DNA of 64,000 nt from Candidatus Zixiibacteriota bacterium (GTDB taxonomy: Bacteria > Zixibacteria > MSB-5A5 > GN15 > FEB-12): the NCBI GenBank assembly GCA_024280215.1, contig JAJRQO010000032.1:1-64000 (forward strand), in the 5' to 3' direction. The notes beneath the pieces are model-generated. The model did not search any database, was not told where the DNA came from, and saw only the letters and a list, made by a program, of their open reading frames with translations. This document shows positions 27,811 to 29,603 of this stretch, in pieces. A program made the translations under genes and the position numbers. Position 1 is the first letter of the stretch, and the number at the start of each line of letters is the position of its first letter.

Positions 27811-28311
27811 ATGGAACATACAAAAGAAGAAATTTCTAAAATTTTAAAAAGAGCCATCAAAGGTGAAGAAGACCGTTTTAACTTTTATCAATTGTTAGCA
27901 GAAAAGTCAGATGATGTTCAAGCGAAAAAGATTTTACAAAAATTGTGTGATGATGAATCACGTCATAAAGTAATTCTTATAGATTTATACAAAAAGTATG
28001 TTTCTGAAGAATTAGGTGAATTGCCTGAAGTTGGTATTGATTCCTTGTCAGAAATTATTAAAAAAGGTCAGGAAATTGGTAAAAGTACAGAAGTTGATTT
28101 AATCAACTTAGCTATTGATGCCGAAGTTGCTGCGACCAAGTATTATCAAGATGAGGAAAATCTTATTACCGACCCTCGCTTCAAGGAAGATTTTGCCAAA
28201 CTGGCTCAAGAAGAACATGATCATTATGATATGCTGATTGCCGAGAGAGAAGCAATCTCTGGGAACCATCATTGGTTTAGTTATGACAATGATTCTCATA
28301 TGGAGCATTAG
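27811..28311 (+). CDS. Rubrerythrin-like ferritin-family protein
   Basis: Di-iron four-helix protein probably reducing hydrogen peroxide in the cytoplasm. 166 residues. Iron-ligand-type Glu and His residues occur as GEEDRFNFYQ, DDESRHK, AEVAATKYYQ and AQEEHDHYDML. It lacks the C-terminal rubredoxin domain of classical rubrerythrins, but a separate 38-residue rubredoxin-like protein is encoded 30 nt downstream and could supply that function. AGGGCAA precedes the start. It is the second gene of an operon running from gltX to the selenoprotein peroxiredoxin. Confidence 0.85.
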   Translation: MEHTKEEISKILKRAIKGEEDRFNFYQLLAEKSDDVQAKKILQKLCDDESRHKVILIDLYKKYVSEELGELPEVGIDSLSEIIKKGQEIGKSTEVDLINLAIDAEVAATKYYQDEENLITDPRFKEDFAKLAQEEHDHYDMLIAEREAISGNHHWFSYDNDSHMEH

Positions 28312-28341: not shown

Positions 28342-28458
28342 ATGCAATGGGTTTGTGAGATTTGTGGGTATGTACATGATGACGATGATGCACCTGACAT
28401 GTGTCCTTTATGTTCTGCTCCGAAATCAAGATTTATAGAATATAAAGAAGAGAAGTAG
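28342..28458 (+). CDS. Small rubredoxin-like protein
   Basis: A 38-residue protein with two knuckles, WVCEICGY and DMCPLCSAP, giving four cysteines for one iron, the pattern of the short rubredoxin domain at the end of rubrerythrin. AGGAGG lies 5 nt before the ATG, an ideal ribosome site. Its position between rubrerythrin and peroxiredoxin indicates it carries electrons to them; here the usual rubrerythrin fusion is split into two genes. Confidence 0.85.
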   Translation: MQWVCEICGYVHDDDDAPDMCPLCSAPKSRFIEYKEEK

Positions 28459-28461
28459 TCC

Positions 28462-28950
28462 GTGGCAGAAATACAAAATAGATTAAGAAAACTCAAAGTT
28501 GGTGATAAGGCTCCAGATTTTACTCTCGAAACTCATAATGAGGGAGAGCTTAACTTGAGTTGGTATCAAGGACGTATGAATGTCGTCCTTGCATTTTATC
28601 CGGGGGATTTCACGCCAAATTGTTCAAATCAGATTCCACTCTATAATGACTATATTGAAAAATTTAATGACTTTGATTGTCAGGTTTTTGCTATTTCGGT
28701 AGATTCGATTGCCTGTCATACTGCATGGGCAAAATCACTCGGTGGTTTAAAATTTCCATTGATGTCTGATTATTTCCCTCATGGAGAAGTTGCTTTAAAA
28801 TACGGGATTTTAAATGAGAGAGGTTACGCTGAACGGACTGTTTTTCTTATAGATAAAAATGGTGTTATTCAGTTTATAGAAGAGCTTGATTATAATTTAC
28901 TTCCTGATAACGAAAAATTATATAATGAACTTGCGAATCTCAAGAGTTGA
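28462..28950 (+). CDS. Peroxiredoxin (AhpC/TSA type)
   Basis: Thiol peroxidase of 162 residues. The thioredoxin fold starts with VGDKAPDFTLET; the peroxidatic site is FYPGDFTPNCSNQ, where T-x-x-C provides the active cysteine. No second cysteine follows at the usual Prx-Q spacing. The start is GTG, 3 nt after the rubredoxin-like stop codon, with GAAGAGAAG upstream. It pairs with the selenocysteine peroxiredoxin that follows. Confidence 0.85.
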   Translation: MAEIQNRLRKLKVGDKAPDFTLETHNEGELNLSWYQGRMNVVLAFYPGDFTPNCSNQIPLYNDYIEKFNDFDCQVFAISVDSIACHTAWAKSLGGLKFPLMSDYFPHGEVALKYGILNERGYAERTVFLIDKNGVIQFIEELDYNLLPDNEKLYNELANLKS

Positions 28951-28997
28951 ATCGTATAGTAGTTGTTATTTGATTGTTTGAAAAAAAGGATTATTGT

Positions 28998-29432
28998 ATG
29001 CTTAAAATTGGAAATAAAGTACCAGACTTTTGTATGGAGTCGTCAAGTGGTGGAAAAGTCTCAGCTAAGGATTTACTTGGGCAATTTGCTGTTTTTGTGT
29101 TTTACCCAAAAAACAGTACTCCCGGTTGAAACAAACAACTTGCCGCTCTGGAAGAGTGCCGAACTGTGTTTGAAAAATTAGACACAAAAATTTTTGGGGT
29201 GAATTTTGCCTCGACACAATCCCATCAGAATTATTGTACAAAAAAAGGGTTTAACTTTCCGCTTTTGTCAGACCCCGATGAGAAAATGATAGCAAAATTT
29301 TTAGCTCAGAAACCTGAAGGAAAAGGTGTCTTACGGACTGTCTACGCAAGTGACAAGGATGGTAAAATAATATATGCTGAGCGAGGTATGGGGAACTTTG
29401 AGGAGATTATAAATCTGATAAAGTCGTCGTAG
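28998..29432 (+). CDS. Selenocysteine-containing peroxiredoxin (TPGU motif)
   Basis: Bcp/PrxU-like peroxidase of 144 residues read through an in-frame TGA at 29127-29129 (codon 44). The TGA stands exactly where the peroxidatic cysteine belongs: FYPKNSTPG-U-NKQ, compared with the usual TPGC. Frame, spacing and homology run intact on both sides, from LKIGNKVPDF to MGNFEEIINL. A bSECIS-like hairpin lies directly after the TGA. Candidate resolving cysteines are Cys54 and Cys80. Standard gene finding would split it into fragments. PrxU-type selenoperoxiredoxins are known from anaerobes such as Eubacterium acidaminophilum. The selA/B/C/D genes needed are not in this window. Confidence 0.85.
29127..29162 (+). 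promoter_or_regulatory. UGA codon and bacterial SECIS-like hairpin
   Basis: After TGA come 19 nt, then the loop TGGAA (29149-29153). The upper stem is CGCTC (29144-29148) with GAGTG (29154-29158); below a C-C mismatch, TTG (29140-29142) pairs with CGA (29160-29162). A loop 16-37 nt from UGA with a G among its first two bases fits the published bacterial SECIS consensus. Confidence 0.7.
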
Positions 29433-29487: not shown

Positions 29488-29603
29488 TGTCTTTCAAGAC
29501 CCTTCGACTCCGCTCAGGGTGACTTGAAAGGCAATGTCTTATAATCTGTCGTACTGAGCGGAGTAGAAGTATGTTCCATAATAGAGGCTTTATCAATAAG
29601 ACC
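29488..29603. mobile_element. MITE-like element, copy 2
   Basis: Aligns with most of the element at 1-142, including CTTTCAAGACCCTTCGACTC, CTTATAAT, GAGCGGAGT and GAAGTATGTTCCA, with scattered substitutions. The terminal inverted repeat is degraded at the right end (ATCAATAAGACCC) and lost at the left, so this copy looks older. It lies between the peroxiredoxin operon and glnS. Confidence 0.6.

Follow-up and report, generated by a model that had tools for sequence, protein, structure and literature searches.

A probable PrxQ/Bcp-type selenocysteine peroxiredoxin in Candidatus Zixiibacteriota

Results

The prxA gene and its internal TGA codon

The window, i.e., the whole stretch of 64,000 nucleotides that was analyzed, contains on its plus strand a gene for a predicted PrxQ/Bcp-like selenoprotein peroxiredoxin, designated PrxA (28998-29432), which comprises 144 amino acids followed by a TAG stop codon. 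The assignment was made by translation, Pfam and an AlphaFold2 model, and the coordinates given for the locus in an earlier note on this DNA were confirmed. Direct reading revealed the motif AAAGGA, which resembles a ribosome-binding site, 7 nt upstream of the ATG (28985-28990, plus strand). The reading frame contains a single TGA, codon 44 (29127-29129, plus strand), in the translated context PKNSTPG-U-NKQ. It occupies the peroxidatic position of the motif PxxxTxxU, is present in all 15 homologues of the class and is read here as selenocysteine (U44). The earlier note had claimed that the TGA replaces exactly the peroxidatic cysteine and that homology is intact on both sides of it; both claims hold, as the site is an invariant column in 15 of 15 homologues of the class, and the Pfam domain AhpC-TSA spans residues 4-126 without a break across the TGA (E 2.2e-30). 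Under translation table 11 PrxA breaks into fragments, as had also been anticipated, and the visible piece is an ORF of 88 amino acids with a GTG start (29166-29432). Other long TGA-split frames in the window were judged by eye, and none was selenoprotein-like.

The gene neighborhood

Three genes on the plus strand precede prxA. They encode a rubrerythrin-like ferritin-fold protein (27811-28311; Pfam Rubrerythrin, E 1.7e-14), a rubredoxin-like protein of 38 amino acids (28342-28458; Pfam RUBY_RBDX, PF21349, E 2.7e-15), and a tandem peroxiredoxin, PrxB (28462-28950), which has an active-site cysteine (FTPNC) and ends with a TGA stop codon. The conserved cluster at this locus reads gltX-rubrerythrin-rubredoxin-PrxB-PrxA-(glnS)-nadA, and the order recurring across the class is gltX, (rubredoxin), PrxB, PrxA-Sec, (glnS), (pyridine-nucleotide reductase), nadA, with glnS lying between PrxB and PrxA in one genus. 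PrxB carries Cys in family f1 and Sec in families f2 and f4, so that a Sec/Cys switch has occurred within one order. The f2/f4 orthologues with a TGA at the peroxidatic site (TPVU) are L099-L109, L123 and L125, and two genomes (G057 and G066) encode a tandem pair of Sec peroxiredoxins. In some relatives a gene for a pyridine-nucleotide-disulfide oxidoreductase is found downstream of prxA, e.g., at positions 5091-6140 of L112.

Selenocysteine machinery and the use of TGA as a stop codon

The window belongs to a metagenome-assembled genome of Candidatus Zixiibacteriota, which has a size of 3.03 Mb and is 96% complete. The earlier note had proposed to look in this genome for selA, selB, selC (tRNA-Sec) and selD, and all four were found. 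SelA (532 bits) adjoins SelB (322 bits) at C40:51820-55037, tRNA-Sec with the anticodon TCA lies at C40:40198-40290 (63.7 bits), and SelD (372 bits) has an in-frame TGA of its own at the CAGU motif, a usual site of Sec. SelA scored above the cut-off in 116 of 132 genomes of the class, so that nearly all of them have the Sec trait. The search also returned the SelA gene of a relative from the same genus (G002:C64:9741-11075) with a single in-frame TGA. Of the 36 open stretches in the window that span 250 codons or more, 4 have TGA as their ordinary stop codon. Because it terminates ordinary genes, including prxB directly upstream of prxA, TGA is not reassigned genome-wide.

Conservation of the PrxA clade

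Homologues were searched with the PrxA protein and its profile among 146 relatives and then in 132 genomes of the class. A scan of the genome contigs with the single PrxA protein gave no matches, and the profile scan succeeded. The PrxA clade in the class has 15 members including that of the window and spans two families. Each of the 15 contains exactly one TGA in the conserved domain, always in the single invariant peroxidatic column, and the 14 other members share 40-73% identity with PrxA. The TGA is also present in two further copies from named contigs, the full-length L068 (the 16th) and the partial L076 (the 17th). A maximum-likelihood tree united the 16 full-length Sec members with a support of 99/94. 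No Cys version of the clade was found among its homologues; none has TGC or TGT at the site, a TGC in resequenced DNA having been named in the earlier note as evidence against a selenoprotein. The catalytic residues P37, T41, G43, U44 and R113 are invariant or nearly so.

In comparisons of PrxA with its two closest relatives, dN downstream of the TGA was about 0.18, dS was about 2 or saturated, and the third codon positions diverged most. Low dN versus high dS, together with the variable third positions, therefore indicates selection at the protein level after the TGA, and purifying selection was similar or stronger downstream of the TGA than upstream of it. One orthologue (L115, about 2210-2590; G054:C24:284803-285087 and just upstream) has an in-frame deletion of the whole FYPKNNTPGU segment, adjoins a Cys version of PrxB and looks like a decayed selenoprotein gene.

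The bSECIS hairpin

A core hairpin with a stem of six base pairs and the apical loop GGA (29150-29152) follows the TGA at positions 29144-29158 (plus strand), and it was delineated by folding, covariation and synonymous redraws. Bacterial SECIS elements are described to have a loop of 3-9 nt with a G within the first two loop positions, at a distance of 16-37 nt from the UGA (PMC13188914). In PrxA (CGCUCU-GGA-AGAGUG) the loop begins 20 nt after the UGA, and the distance, the loop size and the loop G, all of which had been claimed in the earlier note, agree with these rules. A fold of 54 nt contains a possible longer closing stem, in which CAAACA pairs with UGUUUG (29132-29172, plus strand); in longer folds a different helix competes with this stem. 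The folding energy was only modestly better than that of shuffled sequences, with z-scores of -1.5 (40 nt) and -2.5 (54 nt).

RNAalifold yielded no single consensus hairpin over the 15 homologous SECIS regions. Several homologues (L031, L034-L037, L039-L041) can be fitted only with a different register or loop. A shifted hairpin seems to be used by several copies, in agreement with the variability that is known for bacterial SECIS elements (PMC13188914). The covariation of the six-pair stem was 0.340 versus 0.219 for shuffles (1 of 500), and it also exceeded that of every slid version of the stem. The stability of the 45 nt directly downstream of the Sec codon was compared with synonymous codon redraws based on the codon usage of each gene. 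The RNAs of the PrxA Sec clade were more stable than their redraws (mean z -0.96, Fisher p 0.0013, n=15); Cys controls had no excess stability (mean z +0.23, p 0.92, n=28). The PrxB family showed the same pattern, with a p-value of 0.012 for the Sec copies (n=13) and of 0.62 for the Cys copies (n=14), the latter set overlapping with the general Cys control set. The homologues are related, and therefore these combined p-values are not independent and should be taken as indicative.

Affiliation of PrxA and features of its active site

PrxA has the peroxiredoxin domain, the motif Pxxx(T/S)xxC/U and the catalytic Arg. Its top sequence matches are Bcp proteins, and its AlphaFold2 model (pLDDT 95.7) matched PrxQ, Bcp and AhpC structures in the PDB, with PrxQ/Bcp structures dominating the top 14 fold matches. 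The best NCBIfam match was NF006960, with 64.8 bits, which is below its cut-off of 140. Therefore, judged by sequence profile and fold comparison, PrxA is closest to PrxQ/Bcp.

The Xanthomonas campestris PrxQ/Bcp (5iox, 5iiz, 3gkk) shares with PrxA the fold, the motif PKxxTPG-C/U and the catalytic Arg; PrxA differs by having Sec instead of Cys, has only about 30% identity and a shorter C-terminal half. In the profile alignment to 5iox, C80 of PrxA (TGT codon at 29235-29237, plus strand) is aligned with Cys84 of the Xanthomonas protein, the resolving Cys of that enzyme. Judged from the alignment, C80 may be the resolving partner of U44 and a candidate for a selenenyl-sulfide. It is not conserved in the clade, many relatives having Ala, Ser or other residues instead, and therefore these proteins would be one-Sec enzymes with an outside thiol as reductant. 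The resolving Cys at position +5 (TPGCTxEAC) is absent; PrxA has A49 at this position, and no clade member has a Cys there. Many Bcp proteins likewise lack a resolving Cys (PMC8945050), so that the +5 Cys is not a strict requirement for PrxQ/Bcp.

PrxU of Eubacterium acidaminophilum is a selenocysteine peroxiredoxin (cited in PMC9312934), and PrxA had been called PrxU-type in the earlier note. This term is loose: PrxA is likewise a predicted Sec peroxiredoxin, but it falls outside the PrxU equivalog NF040737, with which it reached only 31.8 bits at a cut-off of 270. PrxB is nearer to PrxU than PrxA, with 81.6 bits, and is likewise below the cut-off.

Discussion

Taken together, PrxA is with high probability a PrxQ/Bcp-type peroxiredoxin that contains selenocysteine, and Sec would be inserted at codon 44 via SelB and the hairpin. 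It would thus add a well-supported case to a class of selenium enzymes that is already known, from an uncultured phylum that has received little study. A standard gene caller produces two fragments, which is what would be expected if the TGA were a nonsense mutation in a decaying pseudogene. But the same TGA column is shared by 14 homologues of the class at 40-73% identity, selection persists past the TGA, and the true decay product, L115, looks different, as it lacks the entire active-site segment; a pseudogene is therefore extremely improbable. The data stem from a metagenome-assembled genome and a single locus, so that the TGA might be considered an error of sequencing or assembly in place of a true TGC or TGT, but it occurs in independent genomes from different assemblies, and the chance of such an error is negligible. 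The conserved TGA and the protein-level constraint downstream of it thus speak decisively against both of these readings. An open frame by itself does not distinguish Sec from another amino acid at the TGA (W or G) or from leaky readthrough. Against these possibilities stand the genes that end with TGA, including prxB, the full Sec machinery in the genome, the exact coincidence of the site with the peroxidatic Cys, and the relatives of PrxB that swap Cys and TGA, and both have to be regarded as very improbable. The pseudogene, the code change and the sequencing error were rejected on conservation.

More weight can be given to a selenoprotein with a main role other than peroxide reduction, e.g., as a thiol oxidoreductase or in repair, in line with the absence of the +5 resolving Cys of PrxQ and the lack of conservation of C80. 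It is nevertheless unlikely, because PxxxTxxU and the catalytic Arg are retained, the fold is that of PrxQ, a UxxC motif is absent, and the neighbors encode a rubrerythrin, a rubredoxin and a second peroxiredoxin.

If PrxA is a Sec peroxiredoxin, SelB and Sec-tRNA(Sec) would bind the hairpin after the UGA and insert Sec at codon 44, as the machinery and the conservation suggest. The selenolate of U44, positioned by P37, T41 and R113, would attack hydrogen peroxide or an organic peroxide, and oxidized U44 would be resolved via C80 in the species of the window, or by an external thiol. The conserved gene order suggests that PrxA probably acts together with the upstream rubrerythrin-like and rubredoxin-like proteins and PrxB in a peroxide-defense cassette, the host of which would putatively be an oxygen-sensitive bacterium. 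The pyridine-nucleotide-disulfide oxidoreductase could be an electron source for PrxA. A more specific scenario combines these elements and is put forward tentatively, as it has a rather low probability. It comprises an obligately Sec-containing PrxQ clade of Zixiibacteriota within a dedicated peroxide-defense cassette of rubrerythrin, a mini-rubredoxin, the Sec/Cys-switching PrxB and sometimes an adjacent pyridine-nucleotide reductase, in which the selenenic acid would be reduced by a rubredoxin-like or flavoprotein donor and not by an internal resolving Cys.

Sec-containing peroxiredoxins of the Bcp type (COG1225, TxxU) are a listed selenoprotein family (PMC9312934, PMC13188914), and 91 peroxiredoxin selenoproteins have been found across 78 organisms (PMC5029168). 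Compared by published description, PrxA has in common with the COG1225 family the bacterial origin, Sec at the peroxidatic site, the TxxU motif and the downstream bSECIS; it differs by its occurrence in Zixiibacteriota, by a clade for which no Cys member was found, and by the adjoining second peroxiredoxin. The peroxiredoxin-like thiol:disulfide oxidoreductase selenoproteins share the AhpC/TSA domain, but PrxA is devoid of their UxxC/UxxU motif (U-N-K-Q). Our literature searches retrieved no selenoprotein study of Zixiibacteriota, although the phylum is named in one paper, and no paper for PrxU together with selenoprotein. Automatic annotation would split PrxA or label it a pseudogene, which is corrected by the reading proposed here. 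The PrxA clade, with Sec and no Cys member found, beside the Sec/Cys-switching PrxB also offers a natural comparison for why sites keep selenium.

An Rfam search of the window gave no match, and promoter and terminator scans yielded hits at chance level only. Downstream of prxA lies one copy (29498-29523) of an exact interspersed repeat of 26 bp, GACCCTTCGACTCCGCTCAGGGTGAC, and after it comes an inverted copy that is imperfect; the two other copies in the window are located at 35-60 and, on the minus strand, at 1039-1064.
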